A stretch of 59,478 bases of DNA from Nitrospirales bacterium (GCA_020027535.1 JAHRAK010000138.1:1-59478), one strand, 5' to 3'; positions 583 through 14,777 are shown, counted from the first letter of the stretch. The notes: generated by a model from the sequence alone, not told the origin. Numbers and translations are program-made.

Positions 583-1275
583 ATGGAGAAGAATACAAGC
601 CGAAAAATGTTGGGTATTGTTGCCGTCGTGGCAATGGGATGGACGTTGTCAGCCTGTGGGGAAGCCAAGCCGCCGGCTCCACCGCCCCCGGCGCCGCCGG
701 AATATGCCGACATGCATATGCCGGAAGGCTATTGGAACAATCCGGAAATTCTTGAACAAGGAAAGCAGATCTTTATCGGTGCCGAAAATATCGACGTCAA
801 TTGTGCCAGTTGTCATGGGAAAGATGGAAAGCCCGTGAAGGCCGGGGCCAGAGATTTTCGTCAGGGTGAACACATGCAGTTGTTCTCTGATTCCCAATGG
901 TTCTGGCGCGTCTCCGAAGGGGTCAAAGGCACCAAAATGAAGGCTTGGAAATCCAAGCTTTCCGAGGATGATCGGTGGAAAGTGATTGCCTATGAATCGA
1001 CCTTTGGGTTAAAAGGCCAGGAATATAGTGTCGCTGAGCAGAAATGGGTCCCCGCTGGGACGGCTAAGACAGCTGAGGAGGTGGCTGCTGAAAGGAGTAA
1101 GGCTACAGAAGGTGAAGCGGCTCCTGCGGCTGAAGAGACCGCGGCTGATCCAAAGAGCGTCACTGATCCAGAGGCCGTCGCCCCTGATCCAGAGACCGCC
1201 CCGGCGGCTGAAGAAGCAGCGGCTCCGAATGGGGAAACGGCCGGAGGAGAACCTTCCGAAGAAACTCCGCAGTAA
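583..1275 (+). CDS. Monohaem c-type cytochrome lipoprotein
   Basis: The 230-residue protein starts at the ATG preceded by AAGGTGGGGG. The N-terminus is a lipoprotein signal ending in the lipobox LSAC, so it should be anchored to a membrane and face the periplasm. One haem c motif, CASCH (C74, C77, H78), lies in a compact cytochrome c domain (about residues 45-150). The last 70 residues are a low-complexity Ala/Glu/Pro tail with repeated DPE/DPK units, probably a flexible linker. It is the first gene of a run of same-strand respiratory genes and likely passes electrons to or from the bd-like/bc complex encoded downstream. The precise partner is inferred from position only. Confidence 0.85.
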   Translation: MEKNTSRKMLGIVAVVAMGWTLSACGEAKPPAPPPPAPPEYADMHMPEGYWNNPEILEQGKQIFIGAENIDVNCASCHGKDGKPVKAGARDFRQGEHMQLFSDSQWFWRVSEGVKGTKMKAWKSKLSEDDRWKVIAYESTFGLKGQEYSVAEQKWVPAGTAKTAEEVAAERSKATEGEAAPAAEETAADPKSVTDPEAVAPDPETAPAAEEAAAPNGETAGGEPSEETPQ

Positions 1276-1328
1276 CACGGGTGATTTCCACGTTCTTTGC
1301 GGCATAAACCAGAAGGAGGCCACCACCT

Positions 1329-3041
1329 TTGAAAACCTTAACCCGCAGTCTTGTCATTTTGCTAGGACTTGTGTTCGGGGGACTCGCCGTCGCCTATGCC
1401 CAGGCCCCGGCTCCTCCACCCGTGGAGTTCCCGTATACCGGGAATCGAACGGGGGTGTGGATTGTGGCCCAACTCCACATTTTGTTTGCGGCCTTTATTC
1501 TGGGAGCCCCGATATTCGCCGTGGTGTCGGAATGGTTGGGCTATAAAAACCAGGACCCGAAATATGATCGATTAGCCAAGGAAGTCACCAAAGTCACGGT
1601 TATCCTCTATAGTATGACCGCATTGACGGGCGGGTTGTTTATTTTTGTCCTGCTTGCCACCTATCCTGATTTCACTACCTGGCTCATCCAACATTTTTTC
1701 CTGATTTTCGCCCTGATCTATCCAATCCTGTTTATTCTCGAAACCATTATCCTGTACGCGTATTTTTACTCCTGGGATTCTCTGAAGGGCGAAAAGAAAG
1801 CCCGGCATATTGCCCTGGGGGTCTTGCTGAACGTCGTGGGAACGGTCACGTTGTTTGTGATTGACGGTCCCACGTCGTTTATGAACACGCCTGCCAAATC
1901 CGCGGAAGGGATCTCGTTGATTCAATTTGTCCAAACGGCGGGCTTGTGGGACAAGGTCGCCAATTACAGCTGGATGCCCTTGAATCTCCATCGGCTGGTC
2001 GGAAACGTGACGTTCGGTGGGTTTATAGCGGGACTGGTGGCGGCGTATATGTATATGGGAGCCAAGACGGATGAAGAGCGCTCCTACTATGATTGGATGG
2101 GGTTCGTGGGGAATATGATCGGCGTGGGCGCCCTCTTGTTTCTCCCCTTCATGGGATATCTCCTGGCCTACGAACTGTGTGATTATGACGCGTCCATCTG
2201 TCCATACATGATGGCGGACCAACTGTCGATGTTTTTTGAAATGCAAGGGGCCATGGTCGGCCTGATTTTTCTGGCCAGCAATTATTATATCTGGCTGAGC
2301 ATGAAACGGATTCGAGGCGTGGAGCAGGTTCGTATGTCCGGGCTGGTCATGATCGCCGTCATTCTCATTCCGGTGGTCATGGGGGTCGCCTGGAAAATGT
2401 TCCCCCCCCCGGAATGGCAGTCGCTGATCTTCCTGGCTTTGCTGATCGTTCTTCCGCCGATCCTGAGCAGGCTGCCGGGTTTACGATTTACCGTTTCGTC
2501 CTTCACCATGATCAAGGTCGGATTTCTGATGATTGTGGTCGCCAACGCCATCTGGATGACGCCTCACGGATTTGTGGCGACACAGGCATTGGCTACTGAA
2601 GAATTGGAGCTTCCCTCGTGGGCCAGTGAATTGGCGCTGATGCCGGCGAAAAATGCCGCCGCGTTCACGTTGGTCTTTCTGACCATCGTCAACTATATTC
2701 TCTATAACCGGGCCATCAGGAGCGGAACCATTATCTGGGGGAAAATCGACTTCACGTCCCAGTTCGTCCTGATCTTTTTGGCGTTCAGTGCAATCTGGAC
2801 CATGGGCTTGATGGGGACGGTCCGATCCCTCACGAGAAAATATTTCCACGTGTATAATCTTGTGCCGGACTTTACCCCGGAAGCCTTTACGCCCACGTTG
2901 GCCTATTCCGCCTGGTGGATTACGGGTGTCACCCTGATCTTTTATCTCGTCGTGAGTTTCGCCATTGTCGTGACGTTAAGAGCCACCGGCCAAAAGACCG
3001 AGTCGCCGCAAGGGACCCCGGTGCCCGCCGGTGCGAAGTAA
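1329..3041 (+). CDS. CydA-like (cytochrome bd-related) membrane subunit 1
   Basis: The 570-residue polytopic membrane protein starts at a TTG preceded by AAGGAGG. An N-terminal leader ending near AYAQA suggests a signal sequence. The N-terminal half resembles CydA of bd oxidases: H50 in LHILFAAFILG matches the helix I haem ligand, E138 in ILETIILY matches E107 of E. coli CydA, and H221 in NLHRLVGN matches the H186 haem ligand. The first acidic residue of the E. coli E99/E107 pair appears to be Tyr here. The C-terminal half holds further membrane helices and a WMTPHGF motif shared with the paralogue at 7156. No cydB lies nearby. Its role as an oxidase or an electron-transfer subunit of a bc-type complex cannot be decided from sequence. 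Confidence 0.8.
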   Translation: MKTLTRSLVILLGLVFGGLAVAYAQAPAPPPVEFPYTGNRTGVWIVAQLHILFAAFILGAPIFAVVSEWLGYKNQDPKYDRLAKEVTKVTVILYSMTALTGGLFIFVLLATYPDFTTWLIQHFFLIFALIYPILFILETIILYAYFYSWDSLKGEKKARHIALGVLLNVVGTVTLFVIDGPTSFMNTPAKSAEGISLIQFVQTAGLWDKVANYSWMPLNLHRLVGNVTFGGFIAGLVAAYMYMGAKTDEERSYYDWMGFVGNMIGVGALLFLPFMGYLLAYELCDYDASICPYMMADQLSMFFEMQGAMVGLIFLASNYYIWLSMKRIRGVEQVRMSGLVMIAVILIPVVMGVAWKMFPPPEWQSLIFLALLIVLPPILSRLPGLRFTVSSFTMIKVGFLMIVVANAIWMTPHGFVATQALATEELELPSWASELALMPAKNAAAFTLVFLTIVNYILYNRAIRSGTIIWGKIDFTSQFVLIFLAFSAIWTMGLMGTVRSLTRKYFHVYNLVPDFTPEAFTPTLAYSAWWITGVTLIFYLVVSFAIVVTLRATGQKTESPQGTPVPAGAK

Positions 3042-3059
3042 CGGAGGTTGGAAGCGCAT

Positions 3060-3866
3060 ATGGCTGAGCAAAGTTTGATACGAAACATCATCAAAAAAGG
3101 CGTCGCAGGCGTCATCATCGGGATTATTCTGGTGGCGGTGGCTCGATCCACGCATTTCCCCGTCATTTTCCAGGGTATGTTCTTTGTTTATGCCATGCTC
3201 GGCGCCGGCGTGTTTATCCTGCTCGATGCGCCCTTCCTGCATCGTCTCGATGGAGTCAAGGCCGTCATCGGCCTGGTGTTGTTTTACCTTGTTCTTTCGG
3301 GGGTGTACATCGGCGGGGCAAGCAGCCTGCCTCAGTACGATCCGGAAGTTGAAAAAGGAAAAATCGAAAAGCTCCTGAAAGCGCGTCGAGCCAGGACCAA
3401 GCAGGGGAAAGCCGAAGAACTGATCGCGCGGGCCAAAGCCCTGAACGCGCGAGCCGTCTCGATCGAGCAACAATTGAGAACCCTTGGCGGCGGCGTTCAG
3501 GTCGTGGAGGAAGCCGCGACTCCCGCTTCATCGGCCGCGGCGGGCGACCTGGTGGCGCTCGGCAAGGAGCAATGGGAACTGCAGGAGTGTTACAACTGCC
3601 ACAAACTCTTCGGTAAAGGCGGAAAGAAGCGGGGGCCGGAGTTGGACAATATCGGCAACCTCATGACGCCTGAAGCCCTTAGGGAAAAAATTCTCTACCC
3701 CAAAAGCTGGAAGGCCGAAGGGTTCGACAAGCAGTACAAGAAAGGCAAAATGCCGGACAAATATAAAGACCTGATGTTCGATGAAGAAGTGGACGCGCTG
3801 GTGGCCTTTTTGGCGACGTTGAAAGATGCCTCGGTGAACACGCCGAAGCCCATCAAAATGAAATAA
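3060..3866 (+). CDS. Membrane-anchored c-type cytochrome
   Basis: A 268-residue protein with about three hydrophobic helices in the first 90 residues, then a charged Lys/Arg-rich helical linker, and a C-terminal cytochrome c domain with CYNCH (C177, C180, H181). ATG 3060 is preferred over the in-frame TTG at 3048, because GGAGG directly abuts that TTG and cannot serve it. A candidate distal Met lies in KGKMPDKYK. The gene sits 18 bases after the CydA-like gene and 19 before the Rieske gene, so it is probably a subunit of the same complex. Confidence 0.82.
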   Translation: MAEQSLIRNIIKKGVAGVIIGIILVAVARSTHFPVIFQGMFFVYAMLGAGVFILLDAPFLHRLDGVKAVIGLVLFYLVLSGVYIGGASSLPQYDPEVEKGKIEKLLKARRARTKQGKAEELIARAKALNARAVSIEQQLRTLGGGVQVVEEAATPASSAAAGDLVALGKEQWELQECYNCHKLFGKGGKKRGPELDNIGNLMTPEALREKILYPKSWKAEGFDKQYKKGKMPDKYKDLMFDEEVDALVAFLATLKDASVNTPKPIKMK

Positions 3867-3885
3867 CCTCATTTCAGGACGTTCG

Positions 3886-4830
3886 ATGCAACCGAAAATC
3901 AAGGCAAAAGCGCGGTGTGCTGACGGGGAAGTCGGCAGCATTTCCAAGGTCATTGTCGATCCGCTCTCCCTCGAGATCAGTCACGTGGTGGTCAGGGAAG
4001 GTAACGGGCAAGGTGTGGACCGACAGGTCCCGATCGGCCAAGTCCAGGAAATCCCGAATGAGGAAGAAATTATTCTACGGGGTTCGCTTGAGGAATTCAG
4101 GACGTTTCCCGTGCTGGACCGCGACGCCTACGTCTCGCATCACGACGTGGAAATTGCTCACCTGGAAGACCGTCTCCACGTGGAGCCCGGTGAAATTCTC
4201 GTGCCCTGTCCCCGGCTCGAACAGGGCGTGCCCCGCCGCAGCTTTTTCATGAACATGACGCATGCCATCGGGACGTTGATTGCCCTGCCGTTGGCGTTCC
4301 CCGTTTTAAAATATCTCATGAAACCCATGTATAAGCCGTTTGATAATTCGTGGTTTTCCGTTGGGAACGTTCGCAAAATACGAAAAGATAACATCGGATA
4401 CCAGTTCAAGTTTACGCGGGGCTTTAAGGAAGCCTTTATGCCCGAACAGCAAATCGAAAAAAACATTTGGGTGGTGAAGGCAACGCCTGAAGTACAAAAA
4501 GCCGTCTACGGCGGGAAAGATAAAAAGTTTTATGACCATAAAGGAGAACTGGTGTGGGTGAATAAAGCCAAGGCGCCCTACATCGGATTTTCCGGAAAAT
4601 GCCCGCACCTGGGATGCGGGTACAAGTGGCGCAGAACGAAGAATTTTCCCGACGGGGTTTTTTTGTGTCCCTGTCATTTGAGCATCTATGACGAGGCGGG
4701 CAAGGTGCTGGACGGCCCGGCGCCGCGTGCGCTCGACGTCCTGCCGATGCAAGTCAATGCCGCCGGGGAAGTGCAAATCATCGACGTCGAATACAAGGCC
4801 GGGGTGAAAGGCCAAATCCGATTGCTGTAA
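3886..4830 (+). CDS. PRC-barrel-like/Rieske iron-sulfur fusion protein
   Basis: The 314-residue protein has three parts. Residues 1-85 look like a PRC-barrel domain (ADGEVGSISKVIVDP, ISHVVVREG). A twin-arginine-like RRSFF (R117, R118) precedes one membrane helix at about 123-145. A C-terminal Rieske domain follows, with CPHLGC (C239, H241, C244) and CPCH (C261, C263, H264). The four ligands C239, H241, C261 and H264 and the disulfide pair C244/C263 are present, so a [2Fe-2S] cluster is expected. By family knowledge the Rieske domain is exported by Tat, which leaves the N-terminal domain in the cytoplasm. The next gene encodes cytochrome b, so this is the iron-sulfur subunit of the bc-type complex. 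Rieske subunits normally begin at the Tat segment, making the extra domain unusual. Confidence 0.88.
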   Translation: MQPKIKAKARCADGEVGSISKVIVDPLSLEISHVVVREGNGQGVDRQVPIGQVQEIPNEEEIILRGSLEEFRTFPVLDRDAYVSHHDVEIAHLEDRLHVEPGEILVPCPRLEQGVPRRSFFMNMTHAIGTLIALPLAFPVLKYLMKPMYKPFDNSWFSVGNVRKIRKDNIGYQFKFTRGFKEAFMPEQQIEKNIWVVKATPEVQKAVYGGKDKKFYDHKGELVWVNKAKAPYIGFSGKCPHLGCGYKWRRTKNFPDGVFLCPCHLSIYDEAGKVLDGPAPRALDVLPMQVNAAGEVQIIDVEYKAGVKGQIRLL

Positions 4831-4836
4831 CGCGTG

Positions 4837-5943
4837 ATGAACAGCGATACCACCAACCAACCCAATGCGTTTGAAAAAGTCGTCGACTTTGTCGATGAAC
4901 GGGTCGGTCTGAAAACCATTCAGGCCAAAATGCTGAACGAGCCTGTTCCCGGCGGGTCCCGATGGGCCTATGCGTTCGGATCGTGTTTGCTGTTCATCTT
5001 CATCATGCAGGTGGTGACGGGGATTCTGTTGATGTTTTACTACGTCCCGAGCACCGATCACGCGTATGCCAGCACGCAATACATCATTCACGAAGTGGAA
5101 TACGGATGGTTTCTGCTGAGTTACCATTTCTGGGGCTCCTCGGCCATGGTGGTGATGGTGTTTGCCCATATGTCTCAAGTGTTCTTGTGGGGAGCCTATA
5201 AAAAACCCAGGGAACTGATCTGGTTGGTCGGGCTGGCCCTCTTCGGCCTGGTCATGGCATTCGGCTTTACGGGCTATCTGCTTCCATGGGATCAACGGGC
5301 ATATTGGGCCACGGTCGTGGGTGTCGAGATTATGGATAAGACCCCGGTCATCGGGGATTTCCTGAGTCGCTTTTTGAAGGGGGGACCGACTCCGGGGCAA
5401 ATGACCTTGAGCCGGTTCTTTGTCATTCACGTGATGATTTTGCCGGCGGGCTTAATGGGTCTGGCCGGTCTCCATCTCTTCTTGTTCCGGAAAGCCGGAC
5501 CCGCCGGTCCGTTCCGTGGAACTCCTGAACAAATCAAGGCGAAGACGGATTATTTCTTTCCCAGACAGATCTGGAAGGATATCGTGGCCATGGCCACGGT
5601 CTTCCTGATCATTTGTACGTTGACGTTTATCGAGCCGGTGGTGTTGTTGGAAGAGGCCACACCGGATCCGGGGGATTACCATCCGGAGCCTGAATGGTAT
5701 TTTCTGTTTCTCTTTCAGCTGTTGCGCTTGAAAATCTTTGGCGGAGAATTCGGCCAGTTTCTGGGGGCCGTTGCGATCCCCGGAGCGTTTATGGGGTTCC
5801 TGGCGGCGTTGCCGTTTCTTGACCGGAATCCGGAACGGAATATTTTCAAACGACCGGTTGCATTGATCGGCTGGATTGCCATTATGGCGGTGATTTTGAT
5901 TTTCACCGTGTCCGCGATTCTGAACAGGGAATTTTTGGATTAA
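4837..5943 (+). CDS. Cytochrome b of a bc/b6f-type complex
   Basis: A 368-residue protein combining the b6-like four-helix haem core and the subunit IV-like C-terminal part. The haem b ligand pairs are H97/H111 (spacing x13) and H198/H213 (spacing x14). The second pair has the spacing typical of b6-type proteins. GYLLPWDQ and the Qo-site PEWY (from P285) are intact, so it should oxidise quinol. ATG 4837 was chosen; a GTG one codon earlier is possible. It lies six bases after the Rieske gene, pointing to a tightly coupled operon. Confidence 0.92.
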   Translation: MNSDTTNQPNAFEKVVDFVDERVGLKTIQAKMLNEPVPGGSRWAYAFGSCLLFIFIMQVVTGILLMFYYVPSTDHAYASTQYIIHEVEYGWFLLSYHFWGSSAMVVMVFAHMSQVFLWGAYKKPRELIWLVGLALFGLVMAFGFTGYLLPWDQRAYWATVVGVEIMDKTPVIGDFLSRFLKGGPTPGQMTLSRFFVIHVMILPAGLMGLAGLHLFLFRKAGPAGPFRGTPEQIKAKTDYFFPRQIWKDIVAMATVFLIICTLTFIEPVVLLEEATPDPGDYHPEPEWYFLFLFQLLRLKIFGGEFGQFLGAVAIPGAFMGFLAALPFLDRNPERNIFKRPVALIGWIAIMAVILIFTVSAILNREFLD

Positions 5944-5944
5944 G

Positions 5945-6868
5945 ATGTCGAATGCCAAACTCGGTCTGTTAGTCGCTTGGCCAACCTTCTGGACGGGTTT
6001 TCCTCTGAAGATGGTCCTGGCTGTGCTCATGTTGGCGGCCGGTGTCCATCCGTGGGAAGGTGTCGGTCTTGAAGCGTTGCTGATCCTTTCCATTCCCATT
6101 GACATTTGGGCGCTTGGCCTGTGCTCTCGAACCGTGTTTCTTGAACGGTTGAGCGTGGACCCCCCCAAGGGGACGGGGCTACGCTTGTGGGGGATGTGGG
6201 CGGTCTTTTCCGTGGTCTATCTGCCCCTGTTGTTTGTGGTCATGGGTGGAGCCAAGTCCCTTGCCCAATCCGCGGTCCATGCCACGCTGCATTTTGTCGA
6301 AGAAAACGTCATCGTGATTCCCATCGCGGAAAAAATCAGCCTGGAATTGGTCATGTGGGGATTGCCGGTCACCATCGTCCTGATCGTCCTGGTGTATGGC
6401 TGGTTGTTCGGCTTGGGTGCCTTGGCTCAGCGCTTCGTTCGCGCGTCTGCGCCCGTCGACGGGGCGTTTCAGGACATCGTCTCGAAATGGGATCTCCTCC
6501 GGATTCCACGGGACCAGCCGCTCCTGCTGATGGCCTTTACGGGAACCGGCGTCGTGCTGATCTTTGTGTTTTGGGGCTTGCTCCCCGTGAGCACCCCGCA
6601 TCCCCATGAAGAATACGAATTCATTGACGCGAAAAAGGCGGAAGAAACGGTCGTTCCCAAAAAGGTCATCCAAAGCGCGGAACAGATCCTGGCTCGCGCC
6701 GAAGCCACGTTGAAGGAGTTGGAGAAAGAGAATCCCGCGGGGGACACGCCGAAAGCGGAGAAGCAGGCGGAGGCCCCGGCGAAGGCGGCTCCCAAGAAGA
6801 AACCGGCGGCTTCGGGCGCCCCCGGTTCCTCCGGTCAGGAGCACAACCCCGCCGATCATAAGCATTGA
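5945..6868 (+). CDS. Membrane protein of the respiratory operon, unknown family
   Basis: A 307-residue protein with about five or six hydrophobic segments in the first 220 residues, followed by a long hydrophilic tail rich in Ala, Lys, Glu and Pro that ends in a His/Asp-rich stretch. I do not recognise the family. The ATG follows the cytochrome b stop by one base, implying translational coupling and a structural or assembly role in the same complex. The tail resembles the flexible tail of the first cytochrome in this operon in composition only. No haem or metal-binding motif is obvious. Confidence 0.75.
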   Translation: MSNAKLGLLVAWPTFWTGFPLKMVLAVLMLAAGVHPWEGVGLEALLILSIPIDIWALGLCSRTVFLERLSVDPPKGTGLRLWGMWAVFSVVYLPLLFVVMGGAKSLAQSAVHATLHFVEENVIVIPIAEKISLELVMWGLPVTIVLIVLVYGWLFGLGALAQRFVRASAPVDGAFQDIVSKWDLLRIPRDQPLLLMAFTGTGVVLIFVFWGLLPVSTPHPHEEYEFIDAKKAEETVVPKKVIQSAEQILARAEATLKELEKENPAGDTPKAEKQAEAPAKAAPKKKPAASGAPGSSGQEHNPADHKH

Positions 6869-6894
6869 CGAGAAGATATGTTTGAGGAAAGATT

Positions 6895-7122
6895 ATGAGA
6901 CTGGCGGCGATAGGCATGGCGATGGCGGTGAGCGGGTGTGTGGGCAATCCGACGTTTGATGATGCGCACCTGATGCTCAATAGCGTGTTGGATGGAGCGT
7001 GCAATCAACCGACGTTCAAGCGCCCGTTGTACCGCCATGAGTATGGGGCGTACTCACGGGATCTGATGATCTTGCGGGCGGCCTGTCAGAGCATCGCCCC
7101 GTTGTTACCACACAACTATTGA
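6895..7122 (+). CDS. Small lipoprotein
   Basis: A 75-residue product with a short hydrophobic leader and lipobox VSGC at residues 12-15, preceded by GAGGAAAG at good spacing. The mature part has two further cysteines (GACNQ, AACQS) and no known domain. It lies 26 bases after one respiratory gene and 33 before the second CydA-like gene, so it is probably a small accessory or assembly subunit. Function is unknown. Confidence 0.6.
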   Translation: MRLAAIGMAMAVSGCVGNPTFDDAHLMLNSVLDGACNQPTFKRPLYRHEYGAYSRDLMILRAACQSIAPLLPHNY

Positions 7123-7129
7123 GGGAACG

Positions 7130-7159
7130 ATGAAACGTTCAATGAGGGATCGCACATGA
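7130..7159 (+). other. Nine-codon mini-ORF overlapping the next start
   Basis: An ATG preceded by GAGGGAACG opens a nine-codon frame (MKRSMRDRT). Its TGA overlaps the ATG of the CydA-like gene in an ATGA arrangement. It could couple translation of the downstream gene or be chance. Confidence 0.2.
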
Positions 7160-9033
7160 AAAACCACGGCATAATCGAAAAGCTGAAGTCCCGGGTGCCA
7201 ACGGTGAAACCCTCGTCCCTCTTCGGATGGAGCGTCTTTTGGGCGCTGGTACTTCTCCCGGCGGTCGTCTGGGCCCAGGATGCGGCGACACAAGCGATGT
7301 CGATAGAGTATCGGGACATTCCGGGAGTCGGAAGCCGGAACGTCGTGTGGGTCGTGGCCCAGCAGCATTTACTCCTTGCAGGATTCGTGTTGGGCGTGCC
7401 GATCTTTGCCTGGGTCTGCGAAATCGTCGGATGGAAGACCAAGGAAGCCCGGTACGACAAGCTGGCAAAAGAGTTTACCAAGCTGCTGACGTCCGCCTAT
7501 GCCACGACGGCGTTGTTCGGAGGTATCCTGCTCTTCCTTCTGATCGGGCTGTACCCGAAGCTCATGGCGTATTTGTCCGATATCTTTTTCCCGACCTTCA
7601 TCGTGTACTGCCTGTTGTTCCTGTTGGAAACCGTTACGCTGTACCTGTATTGGTACGGATGGGATGCCATGCAGGGAAACAAAAAGACGTTTCATCTTTT
7701 TCTGGGATTCCTGCTGAACGTCTTTGCCTTGTTTATCATGATCGTCCCCAACGCCTGGGCAACGTTCCAGGCCAGCCCCGTCGTCGTGGGTGACGGGACG
7801 GCGATTGAGCGGGCATGGGCGGCCACGTGGAATCCCACGTGGTGGCCGGTCAACATTCATCGCCTGATTGCGAACGTCGTCTTGGGCGGGTTTATTTGCG
7901 GTGCCTATGCCGGCATCCGCTATCTCTTGGCGGCCAGCCGTGAGGAACGAGAACATTATGATTGGATGGGCTACGTCGGAAATTTCATCGGCGTGTTCGG
8001 CATGCTCCCCCTTCCTTTCGCCGGGTATTGGCTCATGCGGGAGATCTACCAATATAACCAGCAAATGGGCATTACCCTCATGGGAGGATTTTTGGCGTGG
8101 CTCTTTATCCTGCAGGCGATGCTCATCGGGGTGTTGTTCCTCGGGGCCAATTACTACTTTTGGATGGGTATTACCTACCGGATTCCTGGTTCCGAGCGAA
8201 CGTACAGACGGCCGATTCTTGCCATGCTGATTGTGCTCATGGTGTGTCTGGGCGTCTGGATGACCCCCCACTCCCTGGTGGCCAGTCTTGAAGAAGCCAG
8301 AAAAATGGGTGGGACCCATCATCCGCTGCTTGGGGTATTCGGGGTGATGTCCGCAAAAATGACGGTGGCCAATCTCATGATCCTGGTCACATTCATGAGT
8401 TTTATCATGTATTGGCGGGCCGGAAAGCAGGAAACGGCCGCTTGGGCGAAGATTGCCAAATCGGTGATGGGCGCATTGTTGGTGATCGCGGGCATCGCGG
8501 TCATCGTGCTCGGGGTATGGGGGTATTTCGTTCCGGCCATTATCCGGATCAATTATTTCTCCGTCGCCCAGGTGTTGATCGTCTTGTTTGTGATGGTGAC
8601 GTTCACACCCTTGACGGCCCTTCTGATGAGAAGCGCCAAAACGACGACGGAAATGGTCTGGGGGCAAATGCCCATCCGGGCCGGCTATTCTTTGGTATCC
8701 AATGCGGTCATGGTGATCCTGTTGATGTCGCTGATGGGCTATGCCCGCTCGTCGTCCCGGGTGCATTGGCACGTGTACGGTGTGATGAGAGACACCTCGG
8801 ACTATGCCTATTCTCCTGCGTTGGGATACGCGGCCGCCTTCATGTCCCTCAATACCTTTGTGTTTTGTTTGCTGGTGGCGTTTATCTTTTGGGTGGCCAC
8901 AATGGGCGATAAGGGGAAGAAAGCCCCGGATCAGGAACAACCTGAACCGGCCAAGATCCCCGCGAGCGTCACGCCGGCCATGGCCGGAGGAGCCCCACGA
9001 GAGGCGTCTGAAAACGTAGAAGGGATGAGATAA
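7156..9033 (+). CDS. CydA-like (cytochrome bd-related) membrane subunit 2
   Basis: A 625-residue paralogue of the protein at 1329. The hydrophobic leader ends near VWAQ. H71 (QQHLLLAGF), E158 (LLETVTLYLY) and H235 (NIHRLIAN) match the helix I His, the conserved Glu and the second haem-ligand His of CydA. The WMTPHSL motif is shared with paralogue 1. Many C-terminal membrane helices follow, with a hydrophilic Pro/Ala tail. The start has GAGGGATCGCAC upstream. As with paralogue 1, no cydB is present. Two diverged copies in one operon suggest two non-equivalent subunits rather than two oxidases, but that is inference. Confidence 0.8.
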   Translation: MKNHGIIEKLKSRVPTVKPSSLFGWSVFWALVLLPAVVWAQDAATQAMSIEYRDIPGVGSRNVVWVVAQQHLLLAGFVLGVPIFAWVCEIVGWKTKEARYDKLAKEFTKLLTSAYATTALFGGILLFLLIGLYPKLMAYLSDIFFPTFIVYCLLFLLETVTLYLYWYGWDAMQGNKKTFHLFLGFLLNVFALFIMIVPNAWATFQASPVVVGDGTAIERAWAATWNPTWWPVNIHRLIANVVLGGFICGAYAGIRYLLAASREEREHYDWMGYVGNFIGVFGMLPLPFAGYWLMREIYQYNQQMGITLMGGFLAWLFILQAMLIGVLFLGANYYFWMGITYRIPGSERTYRRPILAMLIVLMVCLGVWMTPHSLVASLEEARKMGGTHHPLLGVFGVMSAKMTVANLMILVTFMSFIMYWRAGKQETAAWAKIAKSVMGALLVIAGIAVIVLGVWGYFVPAIIRINYFSVAQVLIVLFVMVTFTPLTALLMRSAKTTTEMVWGQMPIRAGYSLVSNAVMVILLMSLMGYARSSSRVHWHVYGVMRDTSDYAYSPALGYAAAFMSLNTFVFCLLVAFIFWVATMGDKGKKAPDQEQPEPAKIPASVTPAMAGGAPREASENVEGMR

Positions 9034-9084
9034 CTTGCTTGAGAAACCATTGACGTTGGTATTCCCGAACCGGAGCGAGGACCC

Positions 9085-9684
9085 ATGAGTGAAGTCGCAT
9101 TACTCCAATTGATCGGTCTCACAGTCGTAGGATCAGGTATCTGCATCCTGCTCTTTATCAAGGCGAAATTCCTCAGGGTGGTAGGTTTCGTGGTGATCGT
9201 CCTGGGGACGTTTACCTTGATTGCGTTGGGTGTGCCGCAGATGGCCTCTCTCCCGCCGGCTATCGAGACGTTTGATATTACCGAAGTCAAAACGCCGGAT
9301 GACTTGGCCTCGATTGGTCAAAAGATTTTCTTCAGCAAAGGGCAGTGCGCCCTGTGTCATTCCATTGGCCCCAGTGAATCGGCCAGGTGTCCGGATTTAA
9401 AAGGAATCGGGGCCAAACTGGCGCCGGAGTTCATCTATGAAAGCCTCACCGAGCCGCAAGCCTATGTGTATCTGGATTTCAGACATGAAGGGTTGCCCAA
9501 GGAATATCCGGCCCGCATGCCCTATATCCACAAGAATCCGATTGCCTTGTCGCAACAGGAGATTTATTCGGTGATTTCGTTTCTTCAGAAAATGAGCGGC
9601 GAACCCATTAGCGTCAAAGTCGAAGACGTGATGAATATCGGCAAAGAAAGCGACATGAAGGTTGCTTCCATCGAAGCACCTTAA
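9085..9684 (+). CDS. Membrane-anchored monohaem cytochrome c
   Basis: A 199-residue protein with two membrane helices in the first 50 residues and a cytochrome c domain containing CALCH (C88, C91, H92). A candidate distal ligand lies in ARMPYIH. The ATG follows a weak GGAGCGAGGACCC. It lies 51 bases after the second CydA-like gene and 15 before another cytochrome. The domain should face the periplasm and act as an electron carrier in the complex. Confidence 0.85.
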   Translation: MSEVALLQLIGLTVVGSGICILLFIKAKFLRVVGFVVIVLGTFTLIALGVPQMASLPPAIETFDITEVKTPDDLASIGQKIFFSKGQCALCHSIGPSESARCPDLKGIGAKLAPEFIYESLTEPQAYVYLDFRHEGLPKEYPARMPYIHKNPIALSQQEIYSVISFLQKMSGEPISVKVEDVMNIGKESDMKVASIEAP

Positions 9685-9699
9685 CCAGAAGGGTGAAAT

Positions 9700-10425
9700 A
9701 TGAAAGGTCCCCTTGCAAAAACAGTCATCCTGTTGGTGGGAATGTATGTATTTCTCAAATTCATACTCCCGTTGTTCACCGCGCCGCTCCCGGCCAGTCT
9801 GATTTTCTTGTACCTGGCGCTCACCCTTGCCTCTGCGATGATTTTTTATACCATGAGCGGGGGAAGTCTCGACGAATTCATGGGACCCATCGGGCGGTTC
9901 CTCACCGGCACGGGGCAGACGGGCATTGCCGGGACCGCGCGTATTCTGGTCTTCGTGTTGTTCCCCTTGTTGGTGGGGTGGCAAACGTATACCAGACTCG
10001 CCCCAAGCGATATGCCGCCGGCAGAAAATCGAACCATTCATCCCGCGCCTCCTGGGGAGTTTGTCGGTCTGGCGAATCCTTATGAGAGAACGCAGGACAA
10101 TATCATGATGGGGAAAGGCCTCTATGCGGCGTTTTGTTCCCCCTGTCACGGCGCCAATTTCGACGGGAAAGGCCCGGCGGCAGTTGGCTTCAATCCGCCT
10201 CCGGCGAATTTCGGCGATCCCGGAACCATTGCCCAGTTGCAGGAATCCTATTTGTTCTGGCGGATCAAAAAAGGAGGCGTTGGGCTTCCGGTTGAAGCCA
10301 TGCCTTGGAAATCAGCCATGCCGCGATGGGAAGTGGAATTGCCGGACGAATGGATCTGGAAAATTATCATGGGTGAATATGACGGCGCCGGCCAGTCTCC
10401 ACGGACCTGGGAGGAAGAGGAATAA
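9700..10425 (+). CDS. Membrane-anchored monohaem cytochrome c
   Basis: A 241-residue protein with three hydrophobic helices in the first 110 residues and then a periplasmic cytochrome c domain with CSPCH (C146, C149, H150). The segment GKGLYAAFCSPCHG is typical of class I domains, and Met residues near EAMPWKSAMP are candidate distal ligands. An AGAAGG-type site precedes the ATG. It belongs to the same run of genes as the neighbouring cytochromes. Confidence 0.85.
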   Translation: MKGPLAKTVILLVGMYVFLKFILPLFTAPLPASLIFLYLALTLASAMIFYTMSGGSLDEFMGPIGRFLTGTGQTGIAGTARILVFVLFPLLVGWQTYTRLAPSDMPPAENRTIHPAPPGEFVGLANPYERTQDNIMMGKGLYAAFCSPCHGANFDGKGPAAVGFNPPPANFGDPGTIAQLQESYLFWRIKKGGVGLPVEAMPWKSAMPRWEVELPDEWIWKIIMGEYDGAGQSPRTWEEEE

Positions 10426-10504
10426 GGAGCGGGGAGAGGTTGTGCCCTCGTAGGGTCCGATGATCGTGGGATGTGCCGAAGGAAAGGATCCAAGGAGCAG
10501 GAAA

Positions 10505-11341
10505 ATGGGATATAAGAAGAACTGTTACGTCGCGCTTGGGCTCATCCTCGTGGTGACGGGAGTCGGGGCTTCCTGCGTGTTCGCGAGTGATCCGCCCCCG
10601 GAAGGCGGAGCCGAAAGTGTGGCCGTTCGGTTGCATTTAACGGACGACGCGATTTCTGCGGATGATCCGAACGCCCCGGTGTGGGACACGATCCAGCCGG
10701 CGGAATTCAAATTGGCTCCACAGGTGCATTGGCCGGATCGCATTCAGGAAGTCACGGTGAAGTCCGTCAAGGTTCGCGGGATGCATAACGGCCGGGATAT
10801 GGCCATCCTGCTGGAGTATGCCGACCCGACGGAAGATGCCGCTGATGCCGCCGCGATCGAGTTTATGGTCGGCGATAAAATGGCCCACTTTGCCCATGGA
10901 CAGGAAATGCTCCAGGTCGAAGGAGGGGCGGTCAATATCTGGTACTGGAAAAAAGAACACGGCAAAGCCACCGATATGAGTGCCAAGGGGTTCAAAACCA
11001 TTCGGGCGCAGGAAAACCAGAACGTCTCGGCAACGGGCGCATGGCAAGCAGGAACCTGGCGCGTCGTGTTTTCCCGGCCGTTACAAACGGGTGATGAACA
11101 TGACGTGCAAATCACGCCCGGTGAATGGAGAAACCTGGCGTTCGCGTTTTGGGATGGAGAAATCGTGGATGGGGCGGTCAGGGAACAAGGTTCACAAAAA
11201 GCCGTTTCATCGTGGTGGTACGTTCGGGCCGAGCCGCCACCGGACAATTCCATGTATGGATACGTCGTGTTGGGCATTGCGCTTGCTGCCGGCTTTGAGT
11301 TTTTCCTGTTGAGAAGAATTCGGAGGGGTAACGAATCATGA
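10505..11341 (+). CDS. Ethylbenzene-dehydrogenase/NxrC-like haem b protein
   Basis: A 278-residue protein with an N-terminal signal (cleavage near VFAS), a beta-rich periplasmic domain and a single C-terminal helix (YGYVVLGIALAAGF). The domain start VAVRLHLTDDAIS and the pattern NDPNAPVWD-like SADDPNAPVWD recall the haem b-binding gamma subunits of the DMSO-reductase family, including NxrC of nitrite oxidoreductase. ATG 10505 is chosen over ATG 10460 because AAGGAG lies seven bases upstream and because it gives a clean signal peptide. There is no catalytic molybdopterin subunit in the window. A periplasmic electron-transfer role within this operon is likely; haem binding itself is inferred. 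Confidence 0.65.
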   Translation: MGYKKNCYVALGLILVVTGVGASCVFASDPPPEGGAESVAVRLHLTDDAISADDPNAPVWDTIQPAEFKLAPQVHWPDRIQEVTVKSVKVRGMHNGRDMAILLEYADPTEDAADAAAIEFMVGDKMAHFAHGQEMLQVEGGAVNIWYWKKEHGKATDMSAKGFKTIRAQENQNVSATGAWQAGTWRVVFSRPLQTGDEHDVQITPGEWRNLAFAFWDGEIVDGAVREQGSQKAVSSWWYVRAEPPPDNSMYGYVVLGIALAAGFEFFLLRRIRRGNES

Positions 11342-12384
11342 AGGGAGAACAAGGCATGCAGCGGGTACTGGTCAAGATCGCCGTCGTGGTCGTCGCCGTG
11401 TTTGCGGTGACGAGCGGATGTGCCTTGTTTGAAGATGAAAGGACGGCGAAAGGCCGGAAGCTCTATCATCATTACTGTATGCACTGTCACGGTGAAAGTG
11501 GAAGACAGCAGGAAGGCTTCAATTGGGAACGCATGCCGGATCCCCGTCCGCGCGACCTGTCGGAATCCGCGTCGATGTCGACCTTCTCCGACAAGGAAAT
11601 CTTCGACACGATCTCTCGGGACATGCGGGATACCTCATTGCAAGCAGTGCTTGACGACGAAAATTACTTCGCGGTGTCCACGATGCCGACCTTCAAATAT
11701 ACCCTGTCTGAAGAGGAGTTGTGGGCCGTGGTCGGATACGTCCGGACGCTTCATGGTGGGTCGCTGACGTTTGACGTTGACGGACGGAAAGCCGAGTTGG
11801 AGTCCCGGTTTCAAGCGGTAACGGCGGAACATGATCAAGCCAAACAGGTCATGGAAGAAGCCCTGGAGAAACAGGAAGCCGAAGAAGATGACGAAGATAT
11901 GGATATGGAAGACGAGGAGGACGATCTGGAGAACTACGAAGAGGAAGAAGAAGAGATCGTGCTTCCCGAAGAAGAAGCCTATGAAAAAGTGGCGGAACAA
12001 TTCGAAGCCGCCAAGACCGCCCTTGAGAATTTCTCCAAACGCCCGAAAATAAGTCAAATTTCGCGCCCGGACTTGACCGTGGTGGAGCCGGAAAGAGTGA
12101 CCCTGCAAGAAAAAGGCAAAAACCTGTATTTCAACAAATACGGGTGTAACGGGTGTCACAGTATCGGCGACGTCGGTGGCCTGGTCGGGCCGGCCTTGGA
12201 CCGTGCCGGATTCCGTCTCAATGACACGTGGGTCTATCGTTGGGTTCGCTACCCGCAAGGCATGAAAAAGCACACGCGCATGCCGAACCTGGGCCTCGAT
12301 GATGGTGATGCAAGAGCCGTGACGGCGTATCTCGAGACCTTGCGGGCGCCAAAACCGGACAAGCCCATCCCCCCGCCTGAATAA
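11338..12384 (+). CDS. Dihaem c-type cytochrome lipoprotein
   Basis: A 348-residue protein with lipobox TSGC in the leader. It has two cytochrome c domains, with CMHCH (C47, C50, H51) and CNGCH (C270, C273, H274). Between them lies a strongly acidic, probably coiled-coil linker at about 165-230, with long runs of Glu and Asp. Its ATG overlaps the previous TGA (ATGA). A second ATG at 11356 is an alternative start. It is the last gene of the operon; a stem-loop repeat begins 28 bases after the stop. Confidence 0.85.
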   Translation: MKGEQGMQRVLVKIAVVVVAVFAVTSGCALFEDERTAKGRKLYHHYCMHCHGESGRQQEGFNWERMPDPRPRDLSESASMSTFSDKEIFDTISRDMRDTSLQAVLDDENYFAVSTMPTFKYTLSEEELWAVVGYVRTLHGGSLTFDVDGRKAELESRFQAVTAEHDQAKQVMEEALEKQEAEEDDEDMDMEDEEDDLENYEEEEEEIVLPEEEAYEKVAEQFEAAKTALENFSKRPKISQISRPDLTVVEPERVTLQEKGKNLYFNKYGCNGCHSIGDVGGLVGPALDRAGFRLNDTWVYRWVRYPQGMKKHTRMPNLGLDDGDARAVTAYLETLRAPKPDKPIPPPE

Positions 12385-12411
12385 CGGCATTCACGCCACG
12401 CAGAGTTGCAG

Positions 12412-12437
12412 GTCGGATTAGTCAAGCGTAATCCGAC
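12412..12437. repeat. Palindromic repeat after the respiratory operon
   Basis: Nine-base arms GTCGGATTA and TAATCCGAC surround an eight-base loop. The same stem recurs at 27407-27432. No T-run follows, so a Rho-independent terminator is doubtful, although both copies lie just past a gene end. Confidence 0.7.
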
Positions 12438-12446
12438 AACCTCCTT

Positions 12447-12593
12447 CTGTCATCCCCGATCCTCGATTACAAACGTCAAGGACAGGCTCTGATCGGGGAT
12501 CCAGGGTCTTTATCCTTTATATTTTTCCCTCTCCCTCCGGGCGAGGGTCGGGTTAGCCCTGAGCTTGTCGAAGGGCGTAACCCGACAACACGA
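12447..12593. repeat. Dispersed intergenic repeat cluster
   Basis: The cluster holds a degenerate pair of the TGTCATCCCCGA/TCGGGGATCCAGGG family. It also holds a CCTGAGCTTGTCGAAGGG copy flanked by GGGTTAG and CGTAACCC. Both families recur throughout the window. Confidence 0.75.
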
Positions 12594-13487
12594 CTACAGC
12601 GTTCCCACCCAAAGCCCGATCAGAATAACGAATCCGACGCCTACGTGTTGTTTGAACATGATAGACGCCTCCAAGGGAGCCACTTCGCCCCGCAGGCGAC
12701 GGACCTGTTGGCTCAAGAACCCCGCGACTCCGGCGAGTCCCCCATAGAACGCCCCATTGAGATTCTCCAGCCAACCCGCCGTCGCTAAAAGTCCCAGCAT
12801 GGCCGTCTCGATGATTCCCACGGCAATCCATACGTGAGAGCCAAAGAGAATCGCCGACGAATTCACCCCGATGCGAAGATCATCTTCGACGTCCTGAAGA
12901 GCATAAATGGTATCGTAGGCCAAGGCCCAGCAAATCGTGGCGGTAAAGAGCAGCCAGACCGCAGGATCGAGTTGATTGCGAACGGCCGCCCAGGCCATCA
13001 CGGCTCCCCAACCGAATGCCAACCCGAGAAAGAGTTGAGGGATACGAAAGAACCGTTTCGTGAAAGGATAGATCGTGGCTAATCCCAACGCGACCGGGCC
13101 GAGCCGTATGGCCAGCGGATTCAAGAAGAACAGTAGGCTCACGGCTCCGGCAAGCAGGCCACCGAGTAACAGGACGGCGTGCCAGGGGCGAAGGGCCCCA
13201 CTGGCCAGCGGACGAGTTTGGGTGCGGGTGACTTGGCGGTCAAACGAACGATCGGCCAAATCGTTGATAATGACGCCGGCACTTCGCATGAGGAATGATC
13301 CCGCAATGAAAAGGCCGACCAGCAGGCCGGAAGGACGGCCTTGCGACGCCAGGACCAATGCCCACAGAACCGGAAGCATGAGCAGGAGGGTTCCCGTTTG
13401 ATTCGACAGCCTGATCAGAGAACACAGATGAGCAAACGAGAAATGAGGAATCGATGCCGGAGCGGATCTGCCAGCAGGAGAGGTCAT
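12594..13487 (-). CDS. ubiA: UbiA-type prenyltransferase
   Basis: A 297-residue polytopic protein of the UbiA superfamily, which attaches a polyprenyl chain to an aromatic ring during quinone synthesis in the inner membrane. Both Asp-rich motifs are visible: NDLADRSFDR and DTIYALQDVEDD. The ATG at 13487 is preferred; the frame stays open 41 codons further upstream but that part looks non-coding. 4-Hydroxybenzoate prenyltransferase is the closest match by motif. In an organism using the futalosine menaquinone route the same family supplies MqnP, so the substrate is unsure. A polyprenyl diphosphate synthase at 53518-54525 could provide the side chain. Confidence 0.85.
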   Translation of the reverse strand: MTSPAGRSAPASIPHFSFAHLCSLIRLSNQTGTLLLMLPVLWALVLASQGRPSGLLVGLFIAGSFLMRSAGVIINDLADRSFDRQVTRTQTRPLASGALRPWHAVLLLGGLLAGAVSLLFFLNPLAIRLGPVALGLATIYPFTKRFFRIPQLFLGLAFGWGAVMAWAAVRNQLDPAVWLLFTATICWALAYDTIYALQDVEDDLRIGVNSSAILFGSHVWIAVGIIETAMLGLLATAGWLENLNGAFYGGLAGVAGFLSQQVRRLRGEVAPLEASIMFKQHVGVGFVILIGLWVGTL

Positions 13488-13611
13488 CGTGTCACGGTAG
13501 CGCAGAAGAAAAAATGCTGTCAAAGTTGACACAACTCGTTTCAGAAAATAAGATGGCCTTCGAGTTGGAAGCAGCCGTCTCCCGCCAAATTCACGATACG
13601 TTCTCTCCAAG

Positions 13612-13686
13612 GCCGGCGTAGCTCAGTGGTAGAGCAGCTGATTCGTAATCAGCAGGTCGGTGGTTCAATCCCACTCGCCGGCTCCA
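13612..13686 (+). tRNA. tRNA-Thr (anticodon CGT)
   Basis: A full cloverleaf can be folded. The acceptor stem is GCCGGCG/CGCCGGC, the anticodon stem GCTGA/TCAGC, the loop TTCGTAA with anticodon CGT, and the T loop TTCAATC. The CCA end is encoded. It decodes ACG. Confidence 0.95.
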
Positions 13687-13834
13687 TTCACTCCACCCGT
13701 TTTGTGTGCTGCCCGTATGCCGTCATCGAAGAATAGGGTTTGCAATATCAAAGGAATATGGCATGATAAAGGATGAGATGCCGTTGAACGATGACCCGGT
13801 TACGCCTTGTTCATCGCACGGGAAGGAGGTCTCG

Positions 13835-14107
13835 ATGAAACTAAAGGCCGGTAATTTTGTCATGTATCAGAAAGAGAAAATCTCGACGCATCCCAGCCCG
13901 CGAGCCGAGAACATTTTCCCATCTCGACACGGTGACACCTATTCTTACGTGATCAAGAAATTCTGGAAGGTGCTCCGGGTCTTTGACGATGACACCATTG
14001 AAGTCGAAACCCGCCGCGGGAAACGCCGTACCCTGGCGCCCAACGATCATCGCCTTCGCAAAGCCGGACTTTGGCAACGATTGTTGTTCAAAGATCGTTT
14101 CTTTTGA
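13835..14107 (+). CDS. Conserved small basic protein, unknown
   Basis: A 90-residue product chosen to start at the ATG behind GGAAGGAGG; the frame is open further upstream without support. It is rich in Lys and Arg and probably beta-rich (KAGNFVMYQKEK, WKVLRVFDDDTIEVETRRG), which would suit a small SH3-like barrel. I do not recognise a named family. It follows the tRNA-Thr gene by about 150 bases and stands alone. Confidence 0.6.
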   Translation: MKLKAGNFVMYQKEKISTHPSPRAENIFPSRHGDTYSYVIKKFWKVLRVFDDDTIEVETRRGKRRTLAPNDHRLRKAGLWQRLLFKDRFF

Positions 14108-14129
14108 AGAACGTGCCTTCGCGCCGTGG

Positions 14130-14378
14130 TTACGAGTTCTTTTTGCCGTGACCTAAGGCAGCAAACAAGGCGCCTCCGACAAAAACTCCAACCACAAACA
14201 CCATACTGAAAGCCAAGCCTGTTTGCACTTCAGCCCAGTTACGCAGCAGGTTGGTTAACATCGGAGACGGAGGGATATTGACGTGTCCCTCCCAGCCCAG
14301 GGCTTCATCAATGGCGGGATGTTCCGGTGATGGGTGATGTCCGACGTGATTCATCGGTCCTGAAGAAAAAGCCGTCAT
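14130..14378 (-). CDS. Small single-helix membrane protein
   Basis: An 82-residue protein with a His/Pro-rich soluble N-terminus (NHVGHHPSPEHP) and one C-terminal membrane helix (AFSMVFVVGVFVGGALFAAL). GGAGCGAG lies at good distance upstream of the ATG. Function unknown. Confidence 0.5.
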   Translation of the reverse strand: MTAFSSGPMNHVGHHPSPEHPAIDEALGWEGHVNIPPSPMLTNLLRNWAEVQTGLAFSMVFVVGVFVGGALFAALGHGKKNS

Positions 14379-14441
14379 GATACTCGCTCCATTATGGCTA
14401 GGGGCATCCGTTGAAAGATTTCGCAGACCGCCAATATGGTG

Positions 14442-14777
14442 TCAGTCTCTTTGTTCCGTGTCAAGGTCCTGACGGGGGTCGGTCGGGAAGCGGCGTATGT
14501 GACGCGGTGGAGGGGACACGTCGGATGGGTGCGTCCCTTCCAATTCCAGCACCCGTTTATTGAGTTCCGCGAGTTCCTGTGACTTCCGAATGCGGGCCGG
14601 CATGGAAGCCAGGATATGAATCACCATGCCCAGGCACAGAGTCGTCAGCAACACCAGGACGAGCGACCCTTCAAACGTCCACTCAAAAAATTTGATGGAA
14701 ACCGTCTGGTCGTTCTGGAGAGAAAAGGCGACGGTCAAAAAAACGATAATGAGGGTCGCAATTAATGAGAAGGGCAT
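14442..14777 (-). CDS. LapA-domain membrane protein
   Basis: A 111-residue protein with two N-terminal membrane helices. QNDQTVSIKFFEWTFEGSL between them is characteristic of the LapA/DUF1049 family, linked in other bacteria to lipopolysaccharide assembly. A short coiled-coil (ELAELNKRVLELEG) and a polar tail follow. It reads away from purH. Confidence 0.75.
   Translation of the reverse strand: MPFSLIATLIIVFLTVAFSLQNDQTVSIKFFEWTFEGSLVLVLLTTLCLGMVIHILASMPARIRKSQELAELNKRVLELEGTHPSDVSPPPRHIRRFPTDPRQDLDTEQRD

Follow-up and report, generated by a model that had tools for sequence, protein, structure and literature searches.

Bacteria of the Nitrospira type account for a large share of the world's nitrite oxidation, and no purification of the enzyme by which they pass electrons to oxygen is described in the literature cited here. 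The locus analysed here combines bc-, bd- and NxrC-like genes. It raises the question of whether they code for one large quinol-oxidising complex, as an earlier note on this DNA had proposed, or for cooperating assemblies, and of which subunit would reduce O2. The window, i.e. the whole stretch of DNA analysed (59,478 nucleotides, 57.2% GC), is an entire contig (C91) of a Nitrospirales genome of 2.23 Mb in 140 contigs, with a completeness rated 100%.

Translation of positions 583-12384 yielded twelve intact ORFs, all on the + strand as described before (Table 1), with successive spacings of 53, 6, 19, 3, 1, 26, 33, 51, 15, 34 and -4 nt. Exactly six CxxCH motifs are present, the number counted previously, and the region codes for four monohaem and one dihaem c-type cytochromes. 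Pfam analyses identified cytochrome c, Rieske, cytochrome b (N- and C-terminal) and EB_dh (E 6e-21) domains, and PF01654 covers just the N-terminal half of both CydA1 and CydA2 (E 7e-21 and 6e-20, respectively). The combination of bc-type, bd-like (two proteins) and EBDH/NxrC-like components perceived in the earlier note is thus borne out. The ORFs at 5945-6868 and 6895-7122 gave no Pfam match. None of the twelve proteins has a molybdopterin-, Fe-S- or NrfD-type Pfam domain, and the block thus differs from alternative complex III (ActB/ActC-type). The number of promoter-like sites in the operon, 8 as against 8.1 in shuffled sequence, is uninformative on internal promoters or terminators; judging from gene spacing and conserved order, a single transcript is plausible.

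Table 1. Genes of the operon at 583-12384 of the window
Feature	Position	Strand	Remarks
c1	583-1275	+	Monohaem c lipoprotein (CASCH; lipobox LSAC); in conserved order
CydA1	1329-3041	+	bd-like membrane protein (bd-like_1 of N. moscoviensis)
c2	3048-3866	+	Three predicted TM helices, then C-terminal monohaem c domain (CYNCH); probable start codon ATG 3060
Rieske protein	3886-4830	+	CPHLGC/CPCH cluster site
Cytochrome b	4834-5943	+	b6-like with fused C-terminal part
unk	5945-6868	+	Membrane protein without family match
Small lipoprotein	6895-7122	+	75 aa (lipobox VSGC); lineage-specific
CydA2	7156-9033	+	Putative cytochrome-c-fed oxygen reductase, OR-N2/NIDE0901-like (bd-like_2)
c3	9085-9684	+	Membrane-anchored monohaem c (CALCH)
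c4	9700-10425	+	Multi-TM monohaem c (CSPCH)
EBDH/NxrC-like	10460-11341	+	Haem-b protein, C-terminal TM anchor (alt_nxrC_1 of N. moscoviensis)
cc	11338-12384	+	Dihaem c lipoprotein (CMHCH, CNGCH)

A cluster orthologous to this block is already known from Nitrospirales. The order c1-CydA1-c2-Rieske-cytochrome b-unk-CydA2-c3-c4-EBDH-cc is exactly kept in 49 of the 50 named Nitrospirales loci with complete flanks, a grouping far beyond chance. They include those of Nitrospira moscoviensis (L131) and Nitrospira defluvii (L145), in agreement with the related clusters in Nitrospira genomes mentioned in the earlier note. The sole exception, in which the operon is split (L120, CP070743.1), was rejected as most likely a scaffolding artefact, since the break lies inside the Rieske gene and runs of N adjoin CydA2; this MAG 'chromosome' record, which also contains L195, is apparently mis-scaffolded. 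The small lipoprotein, previously counted as part of the operon, is indeed encoded there but was found in only 2 of 80 named loci, plus one locus of the same genus (L040); it is lineage-specific and lies outside the conserved gene set. The unk protein is present in 141 of 147 sampled Nitrospirales, and CydA2, counting paralogues, in 140 of the 296 genomes that were sampled from the phylum (E <= 1e-20). Two families of the same class outside Nitrospirales, f7 and f8, keep almost the entire gene set (L051-L053). Gene order across Nitrospirota, which had been suggested as a check, is thus conserved within Nitrospirales but looser outside them. Two loci with titles from other groups, Nitrospinota bacterium (L121) and uncultured Nitrosospira (L186), have Nitrospirales-type CydA2 proteins (85 and 78% identity) and are probably mislabelled.

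The N. moscoviensis cluster was reported to be highly transcribed, and a III-IV supercomplex contacting NXR via alt_NxrC_1 was proposed (Mundinger et al. 2019, PMC6606698). The description given there (Rieske, cytochrome b, two bd-like proteins, alt_NxrC and several c cytochromes) matches the window, and the N. moscoviensis NSP M-1 locus (CIII_1/bd-like_1/bd-like_2 (CIV)/alt_nxrC_1) has eleven orthologues in the same order, the window having the 75-aa lipoprotein in addition. In N. defluvii (FP929003.1), the counterpart of CydA2 is ~81% identical and is located at the corresponding position of an identical gene order. At the sequence level we saw no functional difference between CydA2 and the NIDE0901-like OR-N2 protein of N. 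defluvii.

We analysed the respiratory inventory of the host genome. The nearest named relatives of its CydA2 belong to MAGs titled Nitrospira sp. or Nitrospirales bacterium (94-96% identity). The genome agrees with the sponge-associated lineage Ca. Nitrosymbion, sponge symbionts belonging to the Nitrospirales (2.36 Mb, 56.9% GC; PMC11812461), in its GC content, its size, its four bd-like proteins and its lack of cbb3 and CydAB oxidases. Searches of the host genome for COX1 and for CydB (PF02322) gave no match, and four proteins only are CydA-like. Thus, as far as the oxidase families searched are concerned (COX1, CydB and CydA-like), the operon holds the best oxidase candidate of the genome, and the reduced gene content of the host narrows the oxidase question to a few subunits. 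No protein of the genome other than the cytochrome b of the operon matches PF00033, which indicates that the operon carries the only bc complex of the host. In contrast, N. moscoviensis was reported to have complex III in two copies, plus one more pair of Rieske protein and cytochrome b.

To this bc complex, which we call module A, we assign c1, CydA1, c2, the Rieske protein, cytochrome b and unk. Cytochrome b has the haem ligands H98/H112 and H199/H214, with a b6-type spacing of the histidines (14 and 15), and a PEWY motif at 286. The four haem-b histidines, the PEWY motif and the [2Fe-2S] ligands of the Rieske protein are intact and invariant among 16 sequences. These features are shared with cytochromes b6f and bc1; in contrast with those, module A has an extra N-terminal domain in the Rieske protein, the TM-anchored c2, the TM subunit unk and CydA1. 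The c2 protein is encoded next to the bc genes and is membrane-anchored; it may associate with cytochrome b as a c-type subunit. The Rieske protein comprises an N-terminal domain of ~115 residues (window 3886-4230), an RR motif with a TM anchor and then the cluster site. Several Rieske orthologues showed weak recurring Pfam matches to PRC or to DUF2171, which looks related, that were below the cut-off (best PRC E 7e-4). The resemblance of the N-terminus to a PRC-barrel is therefore weak at best; the window protein itself has no such Pfam match, and no PDB profile match was obtained. The unk protein appears to comprise an N-terminal part with four TM helices and a C-terminal part with a single TM helix and a coil; only the short C-terminal part, of about 90-126 residues, is found in L051-L053 and L056. 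Searches of Pfam, NCBIfam and PDB sequences with unk found nothing, and its Foldseek matches were no better than E 0.25.

CydA1 is embedded among the genes of the bc half. It keeps H50, H221, M438 and H507 but is devoid of the THHP/HH motif. The equivalent of H372 has been lost in about a quarter of the Nitrospirales proteins in an alignment of 67 CydA1 sequences, from which the HH motif is absent. Using a cut-off of E <= 1e-90, we found CydA1 orthologues in every listed member of the Nitrospirales, in families f7 and f8 and, further afield, in the three genomes of L206-L208; none was found at that cut-off in families f6, f9, f10 and f11, all of which have CydA2. In the three distant genomes, genes for CydA1 and c1/c2-like cytochromes, the latter fused into a single dihaem protein in two of them, adjoin those of molybdoenzymes of the DMSO reductase family, and no bc or CydA2 genes lie close by. 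The enzyme of L206 is a type II DMSO reductase, with an alpha subunit just under the TIGR03479 cut-off (925 bits as against 985) and a beta subunit over that of TIGR03478 (513 as against 481 bits), and those of L207 and L208 are other members of the family. These molybdoenzyme-linked CydA1 copies have lost H372, while H50, E138, H160, H221, M438, K441 and H507 are invariant in 17 aligned sequences that include them.

These associations bear on a proposal made for Nitrospirales and Nitrospinota (PMC12342949 and PMC10839748, both citing Murali 2021), namely that CydA1 (putative OR-N1) and CydA2 (OR-N2) form a heterodimeric CydAA' oxygen reductase in which CydA1 replaces CydB. The bc genes would then be merely co-encoded with it or part of a III-IV supercomplex, and CydA1 would belong with the CydA2 half of the operon. 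The co-occurrence of the two proteins throughout Nitrospirales, and also in f7 and f8, speaks for this pairing, as does the lack of a CydB match in the host genome. However, the four families with CydA2 and no CydA1 orthologue, the distant CydA1 copies with c-type partners but no CydA2 nearby, and the position of CydA1 inside the bc half in the window all argue against it, and we consider the pairing rather doubtful. The presence of CydA1 beside molybdoenzymes in the absence of bc genes and CydA2 suggests that it may be a portable electron-transfer subunit and not simply half of an oxidase. We therefore tentatively propose, while judging the chances to lean somewhat against it, that c1-CydA1-c2 is a portable module of bd origin for electron transfer in the membrane, built into the bc complex in Nitrospirales, and that only CydA2, with its THHP motif, reduces O2. 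If so, CydA1 would be the membrane partner of DMSO-reductase-family molybdoenzymes in some Nitrospirota, and Nitrospirales would have a complex III with a bd-type subunit, CydA1 not being the CydA' half of an oxidase. The apparent separability of c1-CydA1-c2 and its probable partnership with molybdoenzymes are new here. That the modules of CydA1 and CydA2 can occur apart also provides an alternative, open to testing, to the CydAA' pairing assumed so far.

The second half of the operon, module B, consists of CydA2, c3, c4, the EBDH/NxrC-like protein and cc, and it is likely a cytochrome-c-fed oxidase of the OR-N type. Residues 61-301 of CydA2 match PF01654, and its AlphaFold model, which is of moderate confidence (pLDDT 76, pTM 0.77), has significant fold matches to bd oxidases only (best E 6.8e-08). 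The CydA fold and equivalents of H19, E107 and H186 are shared with Escherichia coli CydAB. In contrast with CydAB, there are extra C-terminal helices, the E99 position of CydA is a Tyr, the E445 position is not Glu in the alignment, there is no CydB, and the Q-loop region has no counterpart in the alignment of either protein. The mapping of M393 and E445 is tentative, since the C-terminal halves align poorly. The conserved N-terminal haem region and the lack of both Q-loop and CydB place CydA2 with OR-N cytochromes bd. In a phylogenetic tree, CydA1 (support 100/99), CydA2 of Nitrospiria (100/99) and bd-like_3/4 (100/100) form separate clades.

In 103 CydA2 sequences, H71 and H235 are invariant and H180, H372, H388, H389, M398 and H539 invariant or nearly so; H235, M398 and H539 are kept in all groups compared. 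H235 and M398 are likely the b558-type haem pair, an assignment based on alignments and the moderate-confidence model. H388 occurs only in the CydA2 clade and in the outgroup closest to it; bd-like_3/4, and the other two bd-like proteins of the host, have a Gln at this position, which fits the reported replacement of the CuB-type histidine by glutamine in a bd-like cluster of Nitrospinae, Nitrospirae and anammox bacteria (PMC8026999). Of the four bd-like proteins of the host, only CydA2 has the full histidine set. In class relatives (L056-L062), CydA2 and c3 are fused, which suggests that a cytochrome c is the electron donor of CydA2; this fusion appears to be the strongest sequence evidence for such a donor. 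Clusters with CydA2-c3-c4-EBDH and no CydA1 also occur in relatives.

The tight spacing and conserved order of the genes would suit a single large complex in which all twelve proteins oxidise quinol, with a branch to the bd-like subunits. However, a quinol loop is missing from both bd-like proteins, the CydA2-c3 fusion points to another donor, the two halves are found apart in relatives, and quinol oxidation is not the main route in nitrite growth (PMC12324825). We thus regard a single quinol-oxidising complex as very unlikely; two modules that draw on a common cytochrome c pool are the more probable arrangement.

The NxrC-like protein of the operon scores 99.9 bits with TIGR03477, under the cut-off of 169.85, and its gene is apart from the NxrA/NxrB-like genes of the host, which are on contig C100; it is therefore not assigned as an NXR gamma subunit. 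Further EB_dh proteins are present in the host genome. Candidate axial ligands of the haem b in the NxrC-like protein of the operon are K247, which is conserved, and H143, H146 and M150, which are invariant; the Met position of EBDH is not conserved. In other Nitrospirota (L235-L237), a more distantly related CydA-like protein is encoded, together with c3- and c4-like cytochromes, ahead of TorD-like, NxrA/NxrB-like and NxrC-like proteins in one run, and L240 is similar but has its molybdoenzyme gene further downstream. This arrangement accounts for the presence of an NxrC-like protein in module B, a module that belongs with NXR-type enzymes.

One could also propose that neither bd-like protein reduces O2, both being electron-exchange subunits for molybdoenzymes or NXR and the bc complex, and that the true oxidase has escaped recognition. 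Bd-like proteins indeed occur beside NxrA/NxrB-like proteins and other molybdoenzymes in Nitrospirota outside Nitrospirales, and related ones are present in anaerobic anammox bacteria (PMC3578206), so members of the family need not reduce O2. However, the CydA-like proteins of L235-L237 and L240 have lost H372 and have a Met in place of H71 (equivalent to E. coli H19), whereas CydA2 keeps both histidines and adds H388, and neither a haem-copper oxidase (COX1) nor CydAB was found in the host genome. This alternative thus appears improbable to us. No purified OR-N2 enzyme is described in the cited literature, and we retain CydA2 as the putative oxygen reductase.

We give about an even chance to the reading that the operon codes for complex III and a putative complex IV, as two cooperating modules sharing a cytochrome c pool. 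From gene content, order and conservation, ligand patterns, the fusion and the absence of the searched oxidases and of another cytochrome b, we infer O2 reduction, the route and direction of the electrons and the physical association of the modules. Electrons from the NXR, which is encoded elsewhere, would enter via the NxrC-like haem-b protein, itself anchored in the membrane, and via the c cytochromes, and would then go through c3 to the haems of CydA2, the presumed site of O2 reduction. Module A, with CydA1 as an electron-transfer subunit, would connect this cytochrome c pool with quinone, exchanging electrons between the two. In nitrite growth, methyl-plastoquinone (+57 to +59 mV) lies below the donor nitrite (+430 mV) in potential, and complex III is described as running in reverse with an oxidase fed by cytochrome c (PMC12324825). 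Given these potentials, electrons from nitrite cannot reach O2 via quinone, and module A should work mainly in the direction of quinone reduction, taking electrons from cytochrome c and being driven by the proton motive force. The two modules are possibly associated as a supercomplex.

Related clusters of another architecture occur in L057-L062, in which CydA2 carries c3 as a C-terminal fusion and is accompanied by two MrpD-like antiporter subunits, with the Rieske and split cytochrome b genes further on and no CydA1. They resemble the TO_2 of Ca. Manganitrophaceae (PMC9040806), with which they share an OR-N2-clade CydA, c cytochromes, an NxrC-like protein, Rieske and cytochrome b. In contrast to TO_2, the window has an unsplit cytochrome b, an unfused c3 and CydA1, and Pfam analysis of the ORFs at 583-12384 showed no MrpD-like subunit, which sets the block apart from TO_2-type clusters. 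The locus L056 is a hybrid of the Nitrospira-type and the Manganitrophaceae TO_2-type clusters: it has every gene of the Nitrospirales-type set, CydA1 among them, and the two MrpD genes in addition, located between those of CydA2 and c4. This MrpD-bearing hybrid and the possession of just one bc complex by the host genome, both deduced from gene content, also appear to be new here. The two MrpD/NuoL-like subunits of L056 are encoded at 11136-14606 (G265), between CydA2-c3 and c4, and clusters with MrpD were seen in at least three families (f6, f8 and f9). L056 also has an ATP-synthase c-subunit-like gene (8342-8674; PF00137, 5.6e-14) between the bc half and CydA2, and two more c-subunit-like genes are located elsewhere in the same genome. 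Finally, a convergent gene downstream of the operon in the window (12594-13610) codes for a UbiA-family prenyltransferase of the quinone biosynthesis type, and a UbiA-family gene is likewise present in the N. moscoviensis locus (15057-15953).
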